The notes under the pieces were generated by a model. It ran no database searches and was not told the DNA's origin. It saw only the letters and a program-made list of their open reading frames with translations. Source: an uncultured Vicinamibacterales bacterium (GTDB lineage: Bacteria > Acidobacteriota > Vicinamibacteria > Vicinamibacterales > UBA8438). From it: DNA of 64,000 bases. Below, one piece after another: positions 5,108 through 44,653 of this stretch (position 1 is its first letter; every line of letters begins with the position of its first letter). The DNA lies in assembly GCA_958295905.1 (NCBI GenBank), contig OY282382.1, forward strand, positions 3,682,001 through 3,746,000, written 5' to 3'. The translations under genes were made by a program, and so were the position numbers.

Positions 5108-6184
5108 ATGGACGCGTTGAAGAGCTTCATCGACCTGTTTGCGGATCCCCGGCTGTTCTTCCTGATCACGCTCGCCGCGCTGGTGCTGATCGTGTGGAAA
5201 CGCGAGGCGTTCGTCTCCAACCGCTGGGGTTGGGGGTTGATGGCCTTTCTGACGGTGTTCTTCGGTTTCGGTCTGACCGACGAAAACTTCAACCTGATCA
5301 TCACCAAGCCCGACAACGTGCCGATCGTGGGGCTGATCTTCCTGCTGGTGTTCTTCACCTGGTTCTCGATGCGCCAGGCGGTGGACAACGACCGGCGCGC
5401 CGCCGCCGGCCGGCCGTCGATCGAGAAGGACGAAGAAGACCGCGTCTGGACGTGGCCGGACCTCGTCTATACCGAGCTGATCTCGATGGTGGTGTGCACG
5501 GTCATCCTGATCGTGTGGTCGATCGGGCTGGAGGCCCCTCTCGAGCAGCCCGCCAACAACGCCAACACCCCCAACCCGTCGAAGGCGCCCTGGTACTTCC
5601 TCGGGCTGCAGGAGATGCTGGTCTACTTCGATCCGTGGCTGGCCGGGGTGGTGCTGCCGTCGCTGATCATCGTCGGGCTGATGGCGATTCCCTACATCGA
5701 CAAGAACCCCAAGGGAAACGGCTACTACACGTTCAACGAACGCCGGGTCGAGATCACCCTCTTCCTGTTCGGGTTCGTGGTGCTCTGGTCGTCGCTGATC
5801 GTCCTGGGGACCTTCCTGCGGGGGCCGAACTGGAACTTCTTCGGCCCCTTCGAGTACTGGGACATCCACAAGCTGGAAGCGCTGACCAACGTGCAGTTGT
5901 CCGAGTACATCTGGGTGCGCGGGTTCGGCATGGCCCTGCCGGAGAACTGGTTCGTGCGGGAGATTTTCGGCATTCTGCTGACGATCGGGTACATCGCGGT
6001 GCTGCCGGTCGCGCTGGCGAAGAAGGGGCTGACCCGGTACTACGAGAAGCTGGGGCCGGCGCGCTATTACGTCACCGTGCTCCTCTTCCTGTCGATGCTT
6101 TCGTTGCCGGTGAAGATGTTGACCCGGTGGGTGTTCGACCTGAAATACGTGGTGTCGATTCCTGAGTTCTTCTTCAACATCTAG
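5108..6184 (+). CDS. cytochrome b C-terminal-half / subunit IV-like membrane protein
   Basis: 358 aa, much longer than plant subunit IV (about 160 aa). Two hydrophobic spans precede the core (residues about 15-32 and 40-57) and a third near 78-93. The core has the diagnostic PWYFLGLQEMLVYFDPW, followed by helices such as VVLPSLIIVGLMAIPYID and ITLFLFGFVVLWSSLIVLG. This completes the quinol-oxidising half of cytochrome b. It starts 48 nt after the b6-like gene. The N-terminal extra helices and a C-terminal pair of spans go beyond the standard fold and could dock the octahaem cytochrome encoded next. Confidence 0.88.
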   Translation: MDALKSFIDLFADPRLFFLITLAALVLIVWKREAFVSNRWGWGLMAFLTVFFGFGLTDENFNLIITKPDNVPIVGLIFLLVFFTWFSMRQAVDNDRRAAAGRPSIEKDEEDRVWTWPDLVYTELISMVVCTVILIVWSIGLEAPLEQPANNANTPNPSKAPWYFLGLQEMLVYFDPWLAGVVLPSLIIVGLMAIPYIDKNPKGNGYYTFNERRVEITLFLFGFVVLWSSLIVLGTFLRGPNWNFFGPFEYWDIHKLEALTNVQLSEYIWVRGFGMALPENWFVREIFGILLTIGYIAVLPVALAKKGLTRYYEKLGPARYYVTVLLFLSMLSLPVKMLTRWVFDLKYVVSIPEFFFNI

Positions 6185-6220
6185 TGCAGCCTCGATCACT
6201 TTCAATCTACAGCTAGCGCC

Positions 6221-9079
6221 ATGGCAGACAAACGGGCAGTCGGACACGCCTACAACATCGATTTCCTGAACGTGGTCTTCGCCGCGTCGAGCCTGTTCGT
6301 GCTTTTCTCGACGATGTGGATGGTCTGGGACGACTACGACCGGGAATGGAAGAACCACCAGCGGGATTTCAGCCTCCTCCAGCTTGAGGTGACGCGCGCG
6401 GGTTTGGCGCAGGCCGAGCGGGACGTCGACCGGGCGAGGGTCGCGGAGCTCGAGGCGCAGCGCGCCGCGGCCGAGCAGCAGCTGGCGGCCAATGCCGCGC
6501 AGGTGACCGAGCTGGAAGATCAGTTGGCCGACGTGAACCGGCAACTGTTCGTCGCGACCCAGAACTTCAACTTCACGAAAGCGGTCTACGACGTGGATCG
6601 GTATTCGTTCGAAGTTCGCCGTGACGAAGCCCACGCCGGCGACCATGGAGAGGGAGAGGCCGAGGTCGAAATCGCCGGCCGGGACGAGGTCACCGCGCTC
6701 TACGATCGGTGGTTGGCCGAAGGGCTGGAGGTCGAGCGGCTGACGGCGGAACGGGACGCCATCCGCGGCCGGATCGCCGAGTTCACGGCGGAGGTCGACG
6801 CCGTCACCGACGAGCTCGCGGCGCTGACCGGGGAGGCGGATCGGCTGCGGGGGCTCGTCACCGATTTGGCCCCCAGCTTGATCGACGACTACCTGCTGAA
6901 CGCGCCGCTGCTCGACTTCATGGCGCCGACCCTGACCGTGCGCCAGACGATCACGCCGAACATCGTGGATGACGTGAACTTCATCCGGGTGCCGAAGATG
7001 GACCGGTGCCAGACGTGCCATCTCGCCATCGACTTGGCCGGCTACGAGGACTATCCGCAGCCGTTCCGCACCCACCCCAATCTCGAAACCTACGTGGGCA
7101 GCGCCTCGCCGCATCCGGTCGAGACCACCGGGTGCACGGTGTGCCACGAAGGGATGGGGCAGTCGATCTCGTTCGTCGACGCCGCCCACAGCCCTTCGAC
7201 CCCGGAGCAGATGGCGGAGTGGGAAGAGCGGTACGACTGGGAGGAGTCCCATCTCTGGGACTACCCGATGCTGCCGACGGGAATGGCCGAAGCCTCGTGC
7301 GCCAAGTGCCACCGGGAAGAGGTGTTCATTCCCGAAGCCGACAATCTGAACCTGGGCTACGGCATGTACGAGCGCGCCGGCTGCTATGCGTGCCACAAGA
7401 CCGTCGGGTTCGAGGACCTGCGGAAGCCCGGTCCGAACCTGACGCGGGTCGGCTCGAAGCTCGACGAAGAGTGGGTGGCCCGGTGGATCCGGGACCCGCG
7501 CGCCGTCAAGGCCAGCACCTGGATGCCCAAGGTCTGGTACAACTCGAACACCAGCACCCCCGAGGACGCGGTGCGCAGCGAAGTCGAGATCGACGCGGTG
7601 GTGGCGTACCTCTTCGCCAACTCGGAGGAGCACGAGCCCGCGATCGGATTTCCGGGTCGCGGCAACGCCGAGAACGGGCAGCGAATCTTCGAGTCGGTCG
7701 GCTGTCTCGGCTGCCACATCGCCGGCGGCGAGAGCCGGGAGGCGGCCGGGCCGCGCCGCACCTTCGGACAACCCCTGCAGGCCATCGGCGACAAGACCAG
7801 CTACGTGTGGCTGTTCGACTGGATCCGGAATCCGCGCCACTACAGTCCGGAGACGTTCATGCCGGATCTGAGGCTGAACGATTTCGAGGTGGCCGACGTC
7901 GCGACCTATCTCATGGGACTGACCGGCGGGGGCGGAACGGAGGCGGGCGCGACCTACGAGCCGGCCGACGTCGACGAGGCTCTTCTGAGCTACCTGCGGG
8001 CGATCGTGCCGTTCGAGGAAGCGCAGGCGACCATCGCCGCGATGAGCCCCGAAGAGCGCCAGCTCGATCTCGGGCGCCGGGCGATTGGACGCTACGGCTG
8101 TTACAGTTGCCACGAGATCGCGGGGTTCGAGGACGTCCAGCCCATCGGGACCGAGCTCTCCCAGGAAGGCAGCAAGCTCCTTCCGCAGTTCGACTTCGCG
8201 TTCATACACGCGGAGGAGGTGCCCCACACCAAGCGGGACTGGATCAACCAGAAGCTGCTCGATCCCCGCATCTACGACCGCGGGCGCATCCTGCAGCCGC
8301 TCGAGAAGCTCCGCATGCCCGACTTCGGCTTCTCCGCGGCGGAGGCGCGCCTGCTGACCACGGCGGTGCTGAGCTTCCAGCGGGAAGTGCAGCCGAGGGT
8401 GTCCCAGGTGCAGCGCTCGGCCCGCAAGGACGCCATCATCGACGGGCGCAACCTCGTGCGGCGCCGGAACTGCATCGCCTGCCACGAGATCGAGGGCGAC
8501 GGCGGAGACTACCGCGAACTCGTGGAGGATTCCTCCCTGGCCCCGCCCCTGCTGACCCCGGAGGGGGCGAAGGTCAAGCCCGACTGGCTGTACGCGTTCC
8601 TGCGGGGGCCGATCACGATCCGGCCGTGGCTGGAAGTGCGCATGCCGACCTTCGGACTCGACGACGCGCACTGGAACGGCGTGCTCGACTACTTCGCGGC
8701 GCTCTCCGACACGGTGGGGCCGTTCCGCACCCACGAGCGGGTGGCGGACGCCGGAACCCTCGAGACCGGCGAGGAGCTGTTCGATCTCCTGCGGTGCCAG
8801 CAGTGCCACGTGCTGGACACCATTCCCGAGGATCAGGACGTGGCCAACCTCGCGCCGGACCTGCGGATGACGGCGGAACGGCTGCAGCCCGACTGGATCC
8901 TCGACTGGTTGATCCGGCCCCTGGACATCCAACCGGGCACCCGCATGCCGACGTTCTGGACCGAGTACCCCGGTTCGTTCTATCCACAGTTCGATCAGGA
9001 CGCCGACGCGCAGATCCAGTCGATTCGCGACTATCTGTTGACGTTCAGCGGGGGGCCGAGTCCCCTGCAGGGTAACTGA
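6221..9079 (+). CDS. membrane-anchored coiled-coil octahaem cytochrome c
   Basis: 952 aa. A single N-terminal membrane span (FLNVVFAASSLFVLFSTMWMV) is followed by a long heptad-rich coiled coil (about 45-115 and 165-215). Then come eight CXXCH haem c sites at about residues 263, 305, 360, 388, 494, 626, 750 and 859 (CQTCH, CTVCH, CAKCH, CYACH, CLGCH, CYSCH, CIACH, CQQCH). Several are in monohaem cytochrome c-like modules with a later PGTRMP or WMPKVW methionine loop, so it looks like serial fusion of small cytochromes. It is the last gene of the Rieske/cytochrome b operon and likely replaces cytochrome c1/f as the electron exit. The coiled coil between membrane and haems is unusual. Confidence 0.9.
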   Translation: MADKRAVGHAYNIDFLNVVFAASSLFVLFSTMWMVWDDYDREWKNHQRDFSLLQLEVTRAGLAQAERDVDRARVAELEAQRAAAEQQLAANAAQVTELEDQLADVNRQLFVATQNFNFTKAVYDVDRYSFEVRRDEAHAGDHGEGEAEVEIAGRDEVTALYDRWLAEGLEVERLTAERDAIRGRIAEFTAEVDAVTDELAALTGEADRLRGLVTDLAPSLIDDYLLNAPLLDFMAPTLTVRQTITPNIVDDVNFIRVPKMDRCQTCHLAIDLAGYEDYPQPFRTHPNLETYVGSASPHPVETTGCTVCHEGMGQSISFVDAAHSPSTPEQMAEWEERYDWEESHLWDYPMLPTGMAEASCAKCHREEVFIPEADNLNLGYGMYERAGCYACHKTVGFEDLRKPGPNLTRVGSKLDEEWVARWIRDPRAVKASTWMPKVWYNSNTSTPEDAVRSEVEIDAVVAYLFANSEEHEPAIGFPGRGNAENGQRIFESVGCLGCHIAGGESREAAGPRRTFGQPLQAIGDKTSYVWLFDWIRNPRHYSPETFMPDLRLNDFEVADVATYLMGLTGGGGTEAGATYEPADVDEALLSYLRAIVPFEEAQATIAAMSPEERQLDLGRRAIGRYGCYSCHEIAGFEDVQPIGTELSQEGSKLLPQFDFAFIHAEEVPHTKRDWINQKLLDPRIYDRGRILQPLEKLRMPDFGFSAAEARLLTTAVLSFQREVQPRVSQVQRSARKDAIIDGRNLVRRRNCIACHEIEGDGGDYRELVEDSSLAPPLLTPEGAKVKPDWLYAFLRGPITIRPWLEVRMPTFGLDDAHWNGVLDYFAALSDTVGPFRTHERVADAGTLETGEELFDLLRCQQCHVLDTIPEDQDVANLAPDLRMTAERLQPDWILDWLIRPLDIQPGTRMPTFWTEYPGSFYPQFDQDADAQIQSIRDYLLTFSGGPSPLQGN

Positions 9080-37366: not shown

Positions 37367-37422
37367 GCTGTGAAACATGTCCCCGACGTTTCGTGGCGTT
37401 GGGGTGATCGGCGTCCCCGATC
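37367..37422 (-). repeat. 56-bp repeat, copy 1
   Basis: Starts GCTGTGAAACATGTCCCCGA and ends GGCGTCCCCGATC. It is nearly identical, as the reverse complement, to 40761-40816. In both, one frame (minus strand here) encodes a peptide of the form GDADHP-ATKRR. Confidence 0.8.
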
Positions 37423-37590
37423 ATGACGGTTCGTGGGACCACTGCTCCTGGAACGGTCAGAGTCGGCGATTTCGGTCTCGTTCTCGGCCTCGAGGCCTTC
37501 CGAACGGGGGCCTTCCGGGCCTGGGCGCCGAACGGGCGCCTCGGGGCCGGCCGAGCCGGACACCTCCGGCGGCGGCGTCTCACTTTCCTG

Positions 37591-37772
37591 ACGTGCCCCC
37601 CCGGCCGCGGCGGCAGTAACGTTGTACCGCCTCGGCAGCGTCATCCCGCTGTGGCTTGGGCGGAAGCTGGGGGCGTACCCGGGTGCAGTAACGTTGTACC
37701 GCCTCGGCAGCGTCATCCCGACCCCCGGTGTGAAGACGTGCCCCCCCGGCCGCGGCGGCAGTAACGTTGTAC
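37591..37772 (+). repeat. interlocked direct repeats carrying GTAACGTTGTAC
   Basis: A 37-bp unit (starting ACGTGCCCCCCCGGCCGCGG) is at 37591-37627 and 37736-37772. A 36-bp unit (starting GCAGTAACGTTGTACCGCCT) is at 37613-37648 and 37685-37720. GCAGTAACGTTGTAC therefore occurs three times, the last followed by TACTATTCCC 17-28 nt before the CHAD start codon, so it may be a duplicated promoter or operator. Confidence 0.75.
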
Positions 37773-37788
37773 TATTCCCGCACAGCAC

Positions 37789-39366
37789 ATGTCGCGCCAT
37801 ACGTACCTGCTCGACCCGTCGCACTCGGCGGCCGGCATCGTGTCCCGGCTCGCGCAGCGTTTCACGATTCGGCGCACGGGGACGGGGACCGCCGTCCGCA
37901 CCTATCTCGACACGTTCGATTGGCGCCTCTACCGCGATTCGGGTTTGCTCCTGTCCGATGCCCGGGACGGCAGCTGCCTCGTGCGCTGGGACCGCTTCGA
38001 CGGCCGGTGCCGTCAACGCGCCTCGCTCCCGGCGCCTCCCGACTTCGCCCGGGATCTGCCCCCGGGAGGTTTCCGGGAAGCGCTGCAGGCGGTGTGCGGC
38101 ATCCGGCGGCTCCTGCCGGTCGTCCGCATCGAGCGCCGCAGCGAACGGCTCCCGGTGGTCGACCACCGGGACAAGGTGGTCGCGCGCCTGTCCCTCGATC
38201 GCGGGACCGCCACCGGTCCGACGCGCCGCCGCCGTCGGCTGCGCCCGGCCCTGCGCCTCGTCCCGATGACCGGGTACGAGCGCGCCGGCGCCGGCGTGCG
38301 CCGCTTCTTGGAGCGGGACCTCGGCCTGGCGCCGGGCGCGGAGGGCGAGCTCGATCTGGCCCTGGCCGCGGTCGGCCGCCAACCGTGCGACTACGCCGGC
38401 AAGATCGAGTTGAGCCTCGACCCGGCGGATCGCACCGATCGCACGATGAAGCGCATCCTGGCCGCCCTGTGGGAGACCATGCAGGTCAACGAAGACGGTC
38501 TGCGCCGGGATCTCGATCCGGAGTTCCTGCACGATTTCCGCGTGGCGGTACGGCGGACCCGCTCCTGCCTCGGTCAGGTCCGGGAGGTGTTCGACGACAC
38601 GGTGACGCGCTACTTCGCCGGCGAGTTCGCTTGGCTGGGGGGATTGACCGGTCCGCCCCGGGACCTCGACGTGCATCTGCTCAACCTGCGCGGCTACGAG
38701 GCCGATCTGCCGGCGTCGGCGCGCGGCGATCTGGTGCCGCTGGCCGACCACCTGCGGGGCCGGAAACAGGCCGCGCACCGGGAGCAGCTCGCGGGGCTCG
38801 ACTCGGTCCGCTACCGGCGGCTCAAGCGGGAATGGCGCCGCTTTCTCGAGGCCGACGCCGGCGGGCCGGGGGCGAACGCCTCCCGCCCGGTCGGGGAGGT
38901 GGCGGCCGAGCGCATCGACCGCGCCTATGCGCGGGTGCGCAAGCGGGGCCGGTCCCTCTCGGCGGAGACCCCGGCCGAGACCCTCCACGAACTGCGCATC
39001 GCCTGCAAGAAGCTGCGGTATCTGATCGAGTTCTTCCGGAGCCTGTTCGCGGGCGGTCCCGTGAGCGCCGTCATCAGTGCGCTGAAGCGGTTGCAGGACG
39101 ACCTCGGCGACTACAACGACCTGCAGGTGCAGCAGCGTGAACTGCGGGACACCGCGCAAGAGCTGTTCTCGGCGGGCGGCGCGAACGCGCCGGTTATGCT
39201 GACGATGGGACGGTTGGTCGACCGGCTGGAGTCTCGGGAGAGCGCCGCGCGCCGGCGGGTCGTCGAGCAGGTCGGCCGGTTCGTGAGCGCGCGGACGAGG
39301 GCGGAGCTCGGACGGCTTCTCGCGGCACGCGCGGAGACCTCTGTCTCGGGCCGCGGCTCATCGTGA
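37789..39366 (+). CDS. CYTH-like/CHAD-domain protein (putative polyphosphate-binding)
   Basis: 525 aa. The N-terminal ~200 residues retain the CYTH signature VRTYLDTFDWRLYRDSGLLL but not the ExExK start, so triphosphatase activity is doubtful. From about 220 the CHAD domain begins, with the histidine- and lysine/arginine-rich helices expected for polyanion binding: DPEFLHDFRVAVRRTRS, RDLDVHLLNL, LHELRIACKKLRYLIEFF and LGDYNDLQVQ. CHAD domains bind polyphosphate and target polyphosphate granules. It heads a run with a ParA-like ATPase and SixA next to ppx and ppk. Confidence 0.9.
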   Translation: MSRHTYLLDPSHSAAGIVSRLAQRFTIRRTGTGTAVRTYLDTFDWRLYRDSGLLLSDARDGSCLVRWDRFDGRCRQRASLPAPPDFARDLPPGGFREALQAVCGIRRLLPVVRIERRSERLPVVDHRDKVVARLSLDRGTATGPTRRRRRLRPALRLVPMTGYERAGAGVRRFLERDLGLAPGAEGELDLALAAVGRQPCDYAGKIELSLDPADRTDRTMKRILAALWETMQVNEDGLRRDLDPEFLHDFRVAVRRTRSCLGQVREVFDDTVTRYFAGEFAWLGGLTGPPRDLDVHLLNLRGYEADLPASARGDLVPLADHLRGRKQAAHREQLAGLDSVRYRRLKREWRRFLEADAGGPGANASRPVGEVAAERIDRAYARVRKRGRSLSAETPAETLHELRIACKKLRYLIEFFRSLFAGGPVSAVISALKRLQDDLGDYNDLQVQQRELRDTAQELFSAGGANAPVMLTMGRLVDRLESRESAARRRVVEQVGRFVSARTRAELGRLLAARAETSVSGRGSS

Positions 39367-39408
39367 CGGCGGGTCCCGCGCGGCGGCGGCGGCGGAGGTA
39401 ATGTCCCG

Positions 39409-40167
39409 ATGAGGGTGCTGGCCACCTACAACATCAAGGGGGGGGTGGGGAAGACCGCGGCCGCCGTCAACCTCGCCTATCTCGCCGCCGCCGCGGGATC
39501 GCGCACCCTGGTCTGCGATCTGGATCCGCAGGGCGCCGCCACCTATTCCTTCCGGATCAAGATGAAGGTCCGCGGCGGCGGGAAGAAGCTGATTCACGGC
39601 AAGCGGCCGCTCGGCCGATACGTCCGCGAGACGGACTACGAAGGGCTCGACCTGCTGCCGGCGGACTTCTCGTACCGCCACTTGGACCTGCTGCTCGACA
39701 GCCCGAAGTACGTCCGCCGGCTGACGAGCCGTATCCGCGTGCTCGGCCGCGACTACGACTACGTCTTTCTGGACTGCGCGCCGAGCCTGTCGCTCGTCTC
39801 GGAGGCCGTCTTCGCGGTCGCCGACGCCCTGATCGTGCCGACCATTCCGACGACGCTGTCGCGGCGGACGCTCCGCCAGCTCGTCCGCCACCTGCGGCAG
39901 CATCGGGTGACGGTTCGGCTGCTGCCGTTCTATTCCATGGTCGACCGCCGCCGCACGCTGCATCGCCGGATCTGCGACGCCCCGGACGAGATGCCGTGCC
40001 CCGTGCTCGCGACCGAGATTCCGTACGCCAGCGCGGTGGAGCAGATGAGCGCGCGGCGGGCGCCGCTGTGCGGGTTCGCGAGAACGAACCCGGCCGCCCG
40101 CGCCTATGCCGGCCTGTGGGACGAACTGGTCCGGAGGCTCCAGGATCCTCCGCCGGACCCGTCATGA
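39409..40167 (+). CDS. ParA/MinD-family ATPase
   Basis: 252 aa. The deviant Walker A KGGVGKTAAAVNLAYLAA (residues 10-), switch I/Walker B region VCDLDPQGA and VFLDCAPSLS, and the ParA PTIPTTLSRRTL motif are all present. There is no N-terminal HTH and no ParB gene nearby, so it is of the orphan, cargo-positioning kind rather than a plasmid partition ParA. It is 42 nt after the CHAD gene and overlaps sixA by four bases (ATGA). A role in positioning polyphosphate granules on the nucleoid is inferred from its neighbours. Confidence 0.9.
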   Translation: MRVLATYNIKGGVGKTAAAVNLAYLAAAAGSRTLVCDLDPQGAATYSFRIKMKVRGGGKKLIHGKRPLGRYVRETDYEGLDLLPADFSYRHLDLLLDSPKYVRRLTSRIRVLGRDYDYVFLDCAPSLSLVSEAVFAVADALIVPTIPTTLSRRTLRQLVRHLRQHRVTVRLLPFYSMVDRRRTLHRRICDAPDEMPCPVLATEIPYASAVEQMSARRAPLCGFARTNPAARAYAGLWDELVRRLQDPPPDPS

Positions 40168-40667
40168 AGACGATTCTCCTGCTGCGCCACGGCAAGTCGA
40201 GCTGGGAGGTCGGATCCCTTCCGGATCGCGAACGCCCCCTGGCCTCCCGGGGCGCGGGGGCGGCACGGCGGATGGGTGGGTTCCTCGGCCGGGTGGGGCC
40301 GGCGCCCGACCGCGTGCTGTGCTCGCCGGCGGTGCGCGCGGCCGAGACGCTGCGGCGCGCGGCCGACGCCGGGGGGTGGAGCGCCTCCGCGGCCGTGGTC
40401 CCCGCGTTGTACGGAGCCTCGCCCGGCGACGTGCTGGCCTGCCTCGCCACCGTCCCCGGCGACGTGGAGACGCTGCTGGTGGTGGGACACGAACCGGCCT
40501 GCTCGCAGACCGCGGCCATGCTGATCGGCGGCGCGGCGGTGCGGTTCCCCACCGCCGCGCTCGCGTGTATCGGGTTGGACGTGACGCGGTGGGACGAGGT
40601 CGGGCCCGGCCGCGGGGAGCTGCTCTGGTTCGTCACCCCGCGCATGCTGGCCAAGTTCGACGACTAG
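40164..40667 (+). CDS. sixA: SixA-type phosphohistidine phosphatase
   Basis: 167 aa histidine-phosphatase fold. LRHGKSSWE carries the catalytic RHG, the second Arg is in SPAVRAAET, and the second His is in VVGHEPACS. SixA dephosphorylates phosphohistidine proteins such as ArcB or PtsN. The ATGA overlap with the ParA gene suggests translational coupling. A ppx gene is convergent 276 bp away. Confidence 0.92.
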   Translation: MKTILLLRHGKSSWEVGSLPDRERPLASRGAGAARRMGGFLGRVGPAPDRVLCSPAVRAAETLRRAADAGGWSASAAVVPALYGASPGDVLACLATVPGDVETLLVVGHEPACSQTAAMLIGGAAVRFPTAALACIGLDVTRWDEVGPGRGELLWFVTPRMLAKFDD

Positions 40668-40760
40668 CCGGCGGCCCGGGCGAAGTCCCCGCTGCATTCG
40701 AGCGGCGATGCATCCCGCCGGACGGCGTTGTTCGTCGGTCACCTATGCTCAAACCGCGAT

Positions 40761-40816
40761 GAACGGGGACGCCGATCACCCCGACGCCACCAAACGTCGG
40801 GACCTGTTTTCACAGC
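40761..40816 (+). repeat. 56-bp repeat, copy 2
   Basis: Reverse-complement match of 37367-37422, beginning GAACGGGGACGCCGATCACC and ending with CTGTTTTCACAGC. Together with copy 1 it flanks the CHAD-ParA-SixA genes in inverted orientation, 3.3 kb apart. Confidence 0.8.
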
Positions 40817-40844
40817 ACCAAGCGCTCTCCTCACGCTTGGTCAG

Positions 40845-40934
40845 GCACGGGCGTTCTTCGCCCGCGGGCGCTCTTCAGCCCGCTGGCGCCCCCGCCGCTC
40901 CCGGGGCGACGCGGGGCTTTCACCACGGGCGGTT
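40845..40934 (+). repeat. ~88-bp repeat, copy 1
   Basis: GC-rich sequence beginning GCACGGGCGTTCTTCGCCCG and ending CGGGCGGTT. It matches, as the reverse complement, 61502-61589 with about 10 differences. Confidence 0.75.
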
Positions 40935-40943
40935 GAGGGCTGG

Positions 40944-42446
40944 CTAGCCGAACGACATCCGGTAGCCGGCCTGCCGGAGATAGGCCTCCTCGGTCTCCAG
41001 ATCGGCGCGGGTCAACGGGTGCTGGTCGAGCCACCCCGGGGGGAACCGCAGATCGAGCGCATTCTTTGCGGCGGAGAGCTCGATCGGAGGCAGGGGCAGG
41101 GGGCTGCGGCTCCGGTGCAGGACCACCGACAGGCGGAGGGACATTGCGAGCCGCTCCGTCCACGCCGACCAGCTTCGGGGAAGCGCGGCGATGGCCTCGG
41201 TCGGAAACTTGCGCCGGTGGGAACGCACGAGCGTCGCCAGCACCTGCTGCTCGGGGAGCGAGAACCCCTGCAGGTCCGCGTGCGCGACGATGTACTCGCC
41301 GTGGCGGTGGTAGTGGTTGTGCGCGATGTCCAGACCGATCTCGTGCAGGTTCGCGGCCCAGGACAGGAACTGCCGGGCATTGCGGGCGTCGAGGCCCCAG
41401 CTCGCCGCCACCTGCGCCAGCAGCGCCAGGCCCGTCTGCTCCACCCGCGCCGCCTGTTGCCGATCGATGTGGGCGCGATCGGCCAGGGCCTCGACGCCCC
41501 GCGCCCGGACGTCCTGATCGCGGATACGACCGAGAAAGTCGTAGAGGAGGCCTTCCCGCAGGGCGCCTTCCGAACGGCGCATCACGTCGATCCGGAGCGC
41601 CTCGAACAGGGCGGACAGGATCGCGGTCCCGCCGGCGATCGTCGTCTTGCGTCTGGGGTTCAGCCCCTCCAGCCTCAACCGGCCGATGCGCCCGGCCTTC
41701 AGCAGCGTATCCCGCAGCCGGCCGAGGGCCTCGGCGGTGATGCCTTTCCGGCTCCAGCCGTAGGTGCGGACGAGGCCGTCGATGGCCCGGATGGTCCCCG
41801 ACGCGCCGACCGCCTCATCCCAGTCGAAGGCGCGGAAGCGCTCGGCGACCGGCTCCAGCTCCTGCATGGCGGCTAGTTCCGCCCGCTGCCAATTCTCGGC
41901 GGTGAGCCGCCCGTCGCCGAAATAGGCCCGGCTGAACGTGATGCAGCCCATGTACAGGCTCTCCATGTCCCGGGGCGCCTCGTCACCCGCGATCAGCTCG
42001 GTGCTCCCGCCGCCGATGTCGATCACCAGTTTCCGGCGCTGCGGTTCCGGCAGGGTCCGCGCCACCCCGAGAAAGATCAATCGGGCTTCCTCGATCCCGG
42101 AGATGGTCTCGATGGAGTGTCCCAGCGCCCGCTCCGCATCCATGAGGAATTCGCCGGCATCCGCCGCCACCCGTAGCGTGTTGGTCCCGACCGCCCGCAC
42201 CTCGCTCGGCGCCATGTGGCGGAGCCTCTGGCCGAAACGCCGCAGACACTCGATCGCCCGATCCCGCGACTCGGGACTGAGGCGGTCGTGGGCGTCGAGT
42301 CCGGAGGCGAGCTGCACCATCTCGCGCAGGCGATCGACGAGGACCGGCTCGCCACCCTTGGTCCGGGCGACCAGCATGTGGAAACTGTTGGAGCCGAGGT
42401 CGACGGCGGCGATGTTGTCGGGAAGGGTGTCAATCGGGTTCGGCAC
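40944..42446 (-). CDS. ppx: exopolyphosphatase / guanosine-pentaphosphate phosphohydrolase family
   Basis: 500 aa. The actin-like Ppx/GppA core has VDLGSNSFHMLVAR, EVRAVGTNTLR, SGIEEARLIFLGV and the phosphate-binding VIDIGGGSTELI. A C-terminal HD-like helical domain has ANLHEIGLDIAHNHYHRHGEY and ends near residue 490, as in long E. coli-type Ppx. It would hydrolyse polyphosphate from the ends or pppGpp. It is divergent from ppk with an 86-bp gap and converges on sixA. Confidence 0.94.
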   Translation of the reverse strand: MPNPIDTLPDNIAAVDLGSNSFHMLVARTKGGEPVLVDRLREMVQLASGLDAHDRLSPESRDRAIECLRRFGQRLRHMAPSEVRAVGTNTLRVAADAGEFLMDAERALGHSIETISGIEEARLIFLGVARTLPEPQRRKLVIDIGGGSTELIAGDEAPRDMESLYMGCITFSRAYFGDGRLTAENWQRAELAAMQELEPVAERFRAFDWDEAVGASGTIRAIDGLVRTYGWSRKGITAEALGRLRDTLLKAGRIGRLRLEGLNPRRKTTIAGGTAILSALFEALRIDVMRRSEGALREGLLYDFLGRIRDQDVRARGVEALADRAHIDRQQAARVEQTGLALLAQVAASWGLDARNARQFLSWAANLHEIGLDIAHNHYHRHGEYIVAHADLQGFSLPEQQVLATLVRSHRRKFPTEAIAALPRSWSAWTERLAMSLRLSVVLHRSRSPLPLPPIELSAAKNALDLRFPPGWLDQHPLTRADLETEEAYLRQAGYRMSFG

Positions 42447-42532
42447 GACCCATGTCCTATAATTGAGGGCTTCCGTAAGCAGAGAATCCCCGCGGGATAT
42501 TATCAGCGCGCACCGAATCGAGAAGGGAAGCG
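42447..42532. promoter_or_regulatory. ppx-ppk divergent promoter region
   Basis: The 86-bp gap between the divergent start codons is the AT-richest spot locally: TATAAT at 42458-42463 and ATATTAT at 42497-42503. AGAAGGGAAG immediately precedes the ppk GTG. The strand of each -10-like element is not certain. Confidence 0.45.
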
Positions 42533-44653
42533 GTGTCCACCAGAACCCGTCTCGCCGCCCTCGGACCGGCCCGGGCGTTCGTCAGCCGCGAACTGAGCTG
42601 GTTGGGATTCGCCCGCCGGGTGCTGCATCTCGTCGGCCGGACCGACCTGCCCCTCCTTGAACGGGTCAAGTTCGCGGGCATCATCGGCATGCTCCACGAC
42701 GAGTTCTTCATGAAGCGCATGAGCGGTCTGAAACGCGAGGTCGCCGGTCGCGCCAAGAAGCTCTCCATCGACGGCCGGACCCCGGCCGACGAGCTGGCGG
42801 CGTGCCGCGCCCAGTTGCTGGCCCAGGTTGCGGAGCTCAGCCGTCTGTGGCGCGGGGAGCTGGTGCCGGAGCTGGCCCGGGCGGGGCTGCCGATCCTGCG
42901 TCACGACGATCTGAATCGGGACGAGCGCGCGGCCCTGCGCGCCTACTTCGCCCGCAACGTCCAACCCATCCTGACCCCCCTCGCCGTCGATTCCGAGCAT
43001 CCGTTCCCGTTCATCAGCAACCACGGGCTCAATCTCGCGGTGTTCATGCCGCAGCGCGGCGACACCCGATTCGTGCGCATCAAGGTGCCCGGCAACCGCC
43101 CGCGGTGGATTCCCCTGGAGGATCGTCCGGCCGTCGTGCCGATCGAGCAGGTCATCGCCGCCAACCTCGATCTGATCTACCCCGGATCGGCGCCCGCGGC
43201 GGTCCACGTGTTCCGGGTCACGCGCGGGGCGGAGGGGGACATCGATCAGGCGGACGGCGACGCCGACGCGCCGCTGATGGAGCCGGGCAGCATCATCCGC
43301 CAAGTGAGCTCGGAGTTGAAGGCCCGGCGGTTCGCCGGGGTGGTGCGGCTGCAGGTGGACAGCGCGATGCCGGAGAGCCAGGTGGCGTGGCTGAGCCGCC
43401 AGCTCGGGATCGGTCCCGACGACGTCTATCCGACCCGGGCCCTGCTCGGCATGAGCGACCTCCAGCATTTCGACGGGCGGGGCCGCGACGACCTCCGCCA
43501 CCCGCCGCATCGGCCGGCGGACCACCCCCGCCTGCGCCGGTTGTCCGCCAGCGCCTCCGCGATCTTCGACGCGATTGCGCGCGGCGACATTCTGCTGCAC
43601 CACCCCTACCAGAGCTTCGACAGCTCGGTGCTGCGGTTCCTGAACTCGGCCGCGGCGGACCCGGCGGTGCTCGCCATCAAGCTGACCATCTACCGCACCA
43701 GCCGCGATTCGCCCCTGCTGCGGGCGTTGGCGGAAGCCGCGAGACAGGGCAAGCAGGTGGCGGTGCTGGTCGAGATCACCGCGCGGTTCGACGAGGCGCC
43801 GAACATCGCCTGGGGCAACTTCCTGGAGAACGAGGGGGTGCACGTCTCGTACGGCGTGGAGCGGCTCAAGACCCACGTCAAGCTCGCCCTGGTGGTGCGC
43901 GAGGAGCCGGACGGGGTACGGCGCTACGCGCACGTGGGCACCGGGAACTACCACTCGGGGACGGCCAAGATCTACGAGGACCTCGGAATCCTGACCTGCG
44001 ACGAGTCGATCTGCAACGACGTCGCCAGCGTCTTCAACTCGCTCACCGGCGTGATTCCCTACCCCGAGAACAGCAAGCTGCTGGTGGCCCCGGTATCGAT
44101 GCGGCGCCGCTTCATCAAGCTCATCCGCCGCGAGGCGGAGCATGCCCGCGCGGGGCGGCCCGCCGGCATCGACGCGAAGATGAACCAGCTTCAGGATGCC
44201 GAGATCATCCACGAGCTCTACGACGCCAGCGGGGCCGGGGTGCCCATCCGCCTCAACGTGCGCGGGCTGTGCTGCCTGCGCCCGGGGGTGGAGGGGCTGT
44301 CGGAGACGGTGCGCGTGTTCAGCGTCGTGGGACGCTTCCTCGAGCACAGCCGGATCTTCCGGTTCGTCAACGGGGGGCATGCCGAGCACTTCATCGGGTC
44401 CGCGGACTGGATGAAGCGCAACCTGAACGGCCGGGTCGAGACCGTTATTCCGGTCGAGGACCCCGGGCTGAAGCGGCAGCTCGACGACATTCTGGCCGCC
44501 TACGAGCAGGACAACTGCTCGGTGTGGGACTGCCGTTCGGACGGCGAGTACGTCCTCAGAACCCCGGCCGCGGGCGAGCCGCGGCGCGAGGTGCAGGACG
44601 AGTTCATCCGGCGCGGCCGGGGCGTCGCGGAACCCGCCGGCGCAGGGTCGTGA
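42533..44653 (+). CDS. ppk: polyphosphate kinase 1
   Basis: 706 aa. PPK1 domains are in order: N domain FVSRELSWLGFARRVLHL, head domain FPFISNHGLNLAVFMP, then two phospholipase-D-like C domains. The latter carry KLTIYRTSRDSPLLRAL, VLVEITARFDEAPNIAW, and RYAHVGTGNYHSGTAKIYED, where the His is the phosphorylated residue. A last FVNGGHAEHFIGSADWMKRN contains the second conserved His. It makes polyphosphate from ATP reversibly at the membrane or cytoplasm. GTG start with AGAAGGGAAG upstream. Confidence 0.96.
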   Translation: MSTRTRLAALGPARAFVSRELSWLGFARRVLHLVGRTDLPLLERVKFAGIIGMLHDEFFMKRMSGLKREVAGRAKKLSIDGRTPADELAACRAQLLAQVAELSRLWRGELVPELARAGLPILRHDDLNRDERAALRAYFARNVQPILTPLAVDSEHPFPFISNHGLNLAVFMPQRGDTRFVRIKVPGNRPRWIPLEDRPAVVPIEQVIAANLDLIYPGSAPAAVHVFRVTRGAEGDIDQADGDADAPLMEPGSIIRQVSSELKARRFAGVVRLQVDSAMPESQVAWLSRQLGIGPDDVYPTRALLGMSDLQHFDGRGRDDLRHPPHRPADHPRLRRLSASASAIFDAIARGDILLHHPYQSFDSSVLRFLNSAAADPAVLAIKLTIYRTSRDSPLLRALAEAARQGKQVAVLVEITARFDEAPNIAWGNFLENEGVHVSYGVERLKTHVKLALVVREEPDGVRRYAHVGTGNYHSGTAKIYEDLGILTCDESICNDVASVFNSLTGVIPYPENSKLLVAPVSMRRRFIKLIRREAEHARAGRPAGIDAKMNQLQDAEIIHELYDASGAGVPIRLNVRGLCCLRPGVEGLSETVRVFSVVGRFLEHSRIFRFVNGGHAEHFIGSADWMKRNLNGRVETVIPVEDPGLKRQLDDILAAYEQDNCSVWDCRSDGEYVLRTPAAGEPRREVQDEFIRRGRGVAEPAGAGS

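Follow-up and report, generated by a model that had tools for sequence, protein, structure and literature searches.

Two described systems offer the closest comparison for orphan ParA-type ATPases. In McdAB, which acts on carboxysomes, the gene for a ParA/MinD-family ATPase lies beside that for a cargo-binding protein, the cargo is organelle-like rather than DNA, and there is no ParB. ParABS, as in Soj-Spo0J, works with ParB and parS. For polyphosphate (polyP) granules, spacing on the nucleoid is known through AlgP of Pseudomonas aeruginosa, a DNA-binding protein that resembles histone H1 and has no ATPase (PMC9239181). A 2025 review of organelle positioning has AlgP as its sole entry for polyP granules, with no ATPase, and leaves energy use open (PMC13052382). 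CHAD proteins (phosins) bind polyP, as in CtCHAD of Chlorobium tepidum (6qva, PMC6537752), and no ParA partner of the studied CHADs was found in the literature. Here we describe a CHAD-ParA gene pair in a 64,000-nucleotide (nt) stretch, below called the window (positions 3,682,001-3,746,000), within a 6.3 Mb acidobacterial genome. The same gene adjacency has been reported from Acidithiobacillus, where folD, ppk, parA and CHAD make up a cluster called "highly conserved" (2024, PMC10892726); the accessible part of that source treats ParA as a plasmid-partition protein and proposes no granule role. No paper proposing granule positioning by CHAD and ParA was found, in a search largely without paywalled papers and bioRxiv preprints.

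An earlier note on this DNA described an island of CHAD, ParA, SixA, Ppx/GppA and Ppk1 genes and proposed that it places polyP granules. The gene set and strands are borne out by profile matches, with coordinates as described (Table 1). As a unit the island stands only in part: the CHAD-ParA pair is conserved, but ppk, ppx and sixA are frequent, optional neighbours, and the conserved unit is the pair rather than the whole island. Eight ParA relatives used as queries against GTDB genomes retrieved 80 loci, with 47-60% identity to the ParA of the window. CHAD lies directly upstream of ParA on the same strand in 59 of them, and three others begin at a contig edge. The two genes overlap by exactly 4 nt (ATGA) in 36 of 60 measured pairs and are at most 20 nt apart in 57, supporting both gene pairing and translational coupling. 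Pairs occur in Pseudomonadota (alpha, beta and gamma), Acidobacteriota, Actinomycetota, Planctomycetota, Gemmatimonadota, Thermodesulfobacteriota (under which Dadabacteria are counted, per NCBI naming) and Dormiibacterota. The CHAD-ParA neighbourhood is strongly conserved, in at least seven phyla, and one of the outcomes named in the note as fatal to its proposal, a ParA unlinked to CHAD or ppk in all relatives, is excluded.

These 80 loci are selected nearest relatives; further samples were drawn without selecting for adjacency. Among 247 Acidobacteriota genomes, including the Acidobacteria bacterium Mor1 locus (G129, with the coordinates of L029), the ParA clade (at least 250 bits) is found in 10, all with CHAD and 8 with it adjacent. 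CHAD is found in 141 of the 237 genomes without the ParA versus 10/10 with it (Fisher p 0.006). Conservation throughout the acidobacteria, which the note had suggested checking, therefore holds in one sense only: the pair is kept across at least seven phyla, but it is not general in acidobacteria (10/247 sampled species). In 184 Gammaproteobacteria genomes, ParA is present in 24, the long CHAD subfamily in 18 and both in 16 (Fisher p 2.4e-15). The 25 gammaproteobacterial ParA genes include 16 directly downstream of a long CHAD, three of a short CHAD and one of Ppk1. ParA is rare in Actinomycetota (6/246 genomes); four of these have the subfamily CHAD, always adjacent, and of the two remaining ParAs L177 lacks an upstream CHAD and the other lies at the edge of its contig. 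In one gammaproteobacterial genome (G473) there are two CHAD-ParA pairs, each on its own contig.

Within the family of the window organism, two genomes of the same genus and one of another genus (G011, ParA 65% identical) keep CHAD-ParA, and in all three the pair adjoins ppx and ppk where the contig extends far enough; sixA is missing between parA and ppx in G011. No other genome of the family sample has a close ParA, which is therefore sporadic within the family. No relatives were found in viral contigs. On the Paracoccus plasmids L024 and L025 the pair lies in a five-gene run of small open reading frame, CHAD, ParA, separate CYTH protein and NUDIX.

In genomes where the two genes lie apart, neither has been lost. 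Ten Methylococcales have ParA away from CHAD, and at another place in the same genome each has a CHAD from the subfamily that partners ParA; in Mor1 the partner-subfamily CHAD sits in a Ppk-Ppx-SixA-CHAD cluster; and in L049 ppk and ppx lie between CHAD and ParA. These were considered as counterexamples and rejected, as genome searches located the partner CHAD elsewhere. In the CHAD tree, a branch with just 70% support divides 68 adjacent and 13 split CHADs from the 23 ParA-less ones; the exceptions are one split CHAD and one adjacent CHAD. CHAD and ParA distances are correlated (Mantel r 0.60, permutation maximum 0.24, 65 dereplicated pairs), which shows co-inheritance, not contact. In L109 (positions 1-2731) a CHAD of the ParA-less type has a different ParA-like gene as its divergent neighbour on the other strand; the two may have been paired independently. 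Taken together, CHAD and ParA are very probably functionally coupled.

The CHAD protein consists of an N-terminal TTM/CYTH-fold domain (residues ~1-200) and a long CHAD domain (~205-517). Its AlphaFold2 (AF2) model, from 61 sequences, is of high quality (predicted local distance difference test (pLDDT) 94, predicted template modelling score (pTM) 0.91). The top Foldseek match of the model is the CtCHAD-polyP complex 6qva (template modelling score (TM) 0.92 by target), and the N-terminal part matches TTM/CYTH folds. In the domain tree CtCHAD clusters with the ParA-adjacent CHADs of Dadabacteria and Paracoccus with 99% support. The polyP-binding residues His253, Arg256, Arg260 and Arg296 of CtCHAD, whose equivalents were mutated in SsCHAD (PMC6537752), align with H248, R251, R255 and R291 of the window protein. 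The contact residues are conserved in both CHAD groups, at 96-99% in 81 ParA-partnered CHADs. Of 83 partnered CHADs none has the ExExK catalytic motif of active TTM enzymes where the TTM domain begins, and there are two matches at other positions; therefore CHAD is probably not a polyphosphatase, and its N-terminal domain is probably catalytically dead. Seven residues (K129, T287, Y163, F43, W349, K433 and Q448) are fixed or almost fixed solely in ParA-partnered CHADs; they are diagnostic of the subfamily and could, as unproven candidates, make contact with ParA. At the C-terminus, 36/81 partnered versus 0/14 other CHADs carry an [FY]x.LF motif and a mainly basic tail; this is a weak lead, and the motif is degenerate in the window protein.

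The window ParA has the deviant Walker A motif KGGVGKT with the signature lysine, and K10, G11, G12, G14, K15 and T16 are invariant in 34 relatives; judged from these residues, its ATPase motifs are intact. Its fold is nearest to Soj/ParA (Foldseek: 8ray, TM 0.87; 2bek, TM 0.89 by target), with a profile match to 8ray at E 7.7e-37, and McdA and MinD rank behind. In a quick tree with many weak inner branches, 93 CHAD-linked and related ParAs form one group with 99% support, apart from the paralogues in the window genome. The best two of the other ParA/MinD relatives in that genome belong to ParA-ParB pairs, one at 711-713 kb and the other at 3765-3766 kb. The only ParB_N matches above the cut-off in the whole genome, at 711 kb and 3765 kb, adjoin these other ParAs and fall outside the window, so the description of an orphan ParA without ParB holds. 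No parS-like 16-mers were found in the window with up to 3 mismatches allowed. The window system thus differs from ParABS, which supplies the nearest solved structures of its ATPase, in having neither ParB nor parS. It differs from McdAB in its Walker A motif (McdA has SGGQGKT, PMC9178275), in the better match of its ATPase to Soj/ParA, and in a globular TTM-CHAD partner flanked by ppx, ppk and sixA where McdAB has an McdB-type adaptor and carboxysome genes. CHAD-ParA is a member of neither, although it is proposed to work like McdAB, with polyP as cargo.

The surroundings of the pair have a polyP and phosphate theme. Among 107 outer neighbours, His_Phos_1 (the SixA family) is the commonest Pfam (11), and NUDIX (5), PhoR-type sensor kinases (3), PPK2 (2) and CYTH (2) also occur. 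Ppk1 is found in 5/80 loci (L033, L039, L049, L090 and L098), where roughly 0.3-0.5 would be expected by our own estimate from 12.4 kb per locus. It lies close to CHAD-ParA in the window genus, G011, L033, L039, L090 and L146, and ParA adjoins ppk1 without CHAD in L166 (11 nt downstream) and in Marinobacter L098. The existence of a widespread, mobile CHAD-ParA module with a link to polyP has good support. A Sphingomonas plasmid (L026, positions 5481-6705) encodes a relative that branches deeply from the ParA clade; its gene overlaps aat and follows that of a 128-amino acid (aa) hypothetical protein, which has no Pfam match and is a possible different adaptor.

The most likely function of CHAD-ParA is positioning or segregation of polyP granules, to which we give a probability of about 0.65. 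The two proteins would form a cargo-positioning module in which the granule, made by Ppk1 and degraded by Ppx, is coated by CHAD through its basic polyP-binding surface. ParA would bind the nucleoid as an ATP dimer, and granule-bound CHAD would capture and stimulate it. Granules would thereby be spaced or divided between daughter cells, as carboxysomes are by McdA/McdB; the spacing on the nucleoid would resemble that by AlgP, to which neither protein is related. We infer the contact between CHAD and ParA, nucleoid binding, ATPase stimulation and granule positioning, and the part of CHAD as granule adaptor. Opinion is evenly balanced on the fuller proposal of an ATP-driven, laterally moving system for both positioning and segregation in at least seven phyla, with the dead TTM domain as a structural or ParA-binding part and Ppk1 replacing CHAD in some lineages.

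Several observations weigh against granule positioning. An AF2 model was made of CHAD and ParA as one readthrough chain, in which the TGA at 39364-39366 is read as W as a purely computational tether; its alignment combined four such chains with a small number of ParA rows, plasmid-record proteins being left out. This model reaches pLDDT 91 but a pTM of 0.70 versus 0.91 for CHAD alone. Therefore it gives no confident CHAD-ParA interface and is consistent with two good domains in undefined relative orientation. Known partners of ParA/MinD proteins have a positively charged, disordered N-terminus (PMC10241942), but CHAD lacks one: its model is ordered from about residue 4 onward, and across 81 relatives the first 20 residues carry a net charge of -1 as the median. 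No recognised polyP gene adjoins the clade ParAs in L161, L164, L165, L167, L177, L086, L091 and L101. The module is also sporadic in distribution, and granule spacing in P. aeruginosa needs the unrelated AlgP (PMC9239181).

The missing basic, disordered adaptor peptide would be accommodated if ParA were instead a regulatory ATPase of polyP metabolism, binding CHAD or Ppk1 and, depending on whether it carries ATP or ADP, switching granule assembly, the binding of polyP or kinase activity, like BcsQ in the cellulose synthase complex. The loci where ParA adjoins ppk1 without CHAD, the PhoR, PPK2, SixA, NUDIX and CYTH neighbours, and the weaker matches of ParA to BcsQ by profile and fold all agree with such a role. 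However, the nearest solved structures are DNA-partitioning ParA/Soj proteins, and the deviant Walker A motif and signature lysine are invariant in the ParA, where BcsQ is given as RGGVGTT (PMC9178275); we regard regulation as unlikely, if the best of the alternatives to granule positioning. Much less probable is lateral transfer of CHAD and ParA as a pair without joint function. Sporadic occurrence and the plasmid-borne Paracoccus copies would fit hitch-hiking of this kind, but the ATGA overlap is kept across phyla, split pairs retain both partners, CHADs with and without ParA belong to different subfamilies, and the ParA association is seen with short CHADs too.

Two further explanations seem more remote still. 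A ParABS-like DNA partition system, with CHAD or an unseen protein in place of ParB, would take the repeats upstream of CHAD as its centromere. The ParA fold, the existence of plasmid copies and the repeats themselves speak for it: the exact 16-mer GGCAGTAACGTTGTAC is unique genome-wide to the region upstream of CHAD, where its three copies sit inside longer repeats (Table 1). They are however absent at sister-species loci, and for that reason the reading of them as an operator or centromere under conservation was rejected. Two ParA-ParB pairs are already present in the genome, the window lacks a parS, the pair is located on a 6.1 Mb contig, and CHAD domains bind polyP, not nucleic acids (PMC6537752); DNA partition is accordingly given very little weight. 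No greater weight is given to a ParA that positions another cargo (a chromosome region, or a polyhydroxyalkanoate or glycogen granule) with CHAD merely as its polyP sensor. In its favour are the neighbours of relatives outside the CHAD-linked core (L023, L035, L042, L057 and L061). A more distant ParA on the Marinobacter nauticus plasmid pMAQU02 (L023) is beside genes for pyruvate kinase, acetyl-CoA hydrolase and phbB, which hints that this relative may be devoted to polyhydroxybutyrate. In the Methylococcales loci L035, L042, L057 and L061 a clade ParA is directly upstream of a gene labelled glycogen-phosphorylase-like from a reading of its translation. But neighbours of these types are lineage-limited, and the Methylococcales cases retain a CHAD partner elsewhere in the genome.

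Table 1. Features of the CHAD-ParA locus, in window coordinates.
Feature	Position	Strand	Evidence or description
GGCAGTAACGTTGTAC repeats, three copies	37612-37772	+	One copy with 1 mismatch; directly upstream of CHAD start, spacing 72-73 bp
Longer repeats containing GGCAGTAACGTTGTAC	37590-37772		38-41 nt
CHAD protein, 525 aa	37789-39366	+	PF05235, E 1.6e-62, residues 223-453
ParA-type ATPase, 252 aa	39409-40167	+	CHAD-associated ParA subfamily; AAA_31, E 6.1e-31; KGGVGKT
SixA-type histidine phosphatase	40164-40667	+	TIGR00249, 66 bits (slightly below cut-off of 74.5); His_Phos_1, E 2.2e-07
Ppx/GppA exopolyphosphatase family protein	40944-42446	-	PF02541, E 2.9e-72; PF21447
Ppk1 polyphosphate kinase	42533-44653	+	TIGR03705, 718 bits (cut-off 465.85); four PP_kinase domains
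Inverted repeat, 65 nt	37367-37431 / 40752-40816		85% complementary

The CHAD gene of the window is the only one in its genome. The parA and sixA genes overlap by ATGA at 40164, and ppx converges on sixA and points away from ppk. The island is flanked by an M23 peptidase gene, with SecA further out, and by a cell-wall hydrolase gene. The inverted repeat lies on both sides of the CHAD-ParA-sixA operon, and could be a trace of past mobility or a dispersed repeat.

CHAD-ParA is a strong candidate for an unrecognised, testable system that places or shares out polyP granules, for which it supplies a named ATPase and adaptor, with cultured relatives in Methylomonas, Nitrosomonas, Thalassobaculum and Paracoccus. 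If the proposal is true, the ParA/MinD family would gain polyP as a cargo, and a function would be suggested for a large set of orphan ParAs.

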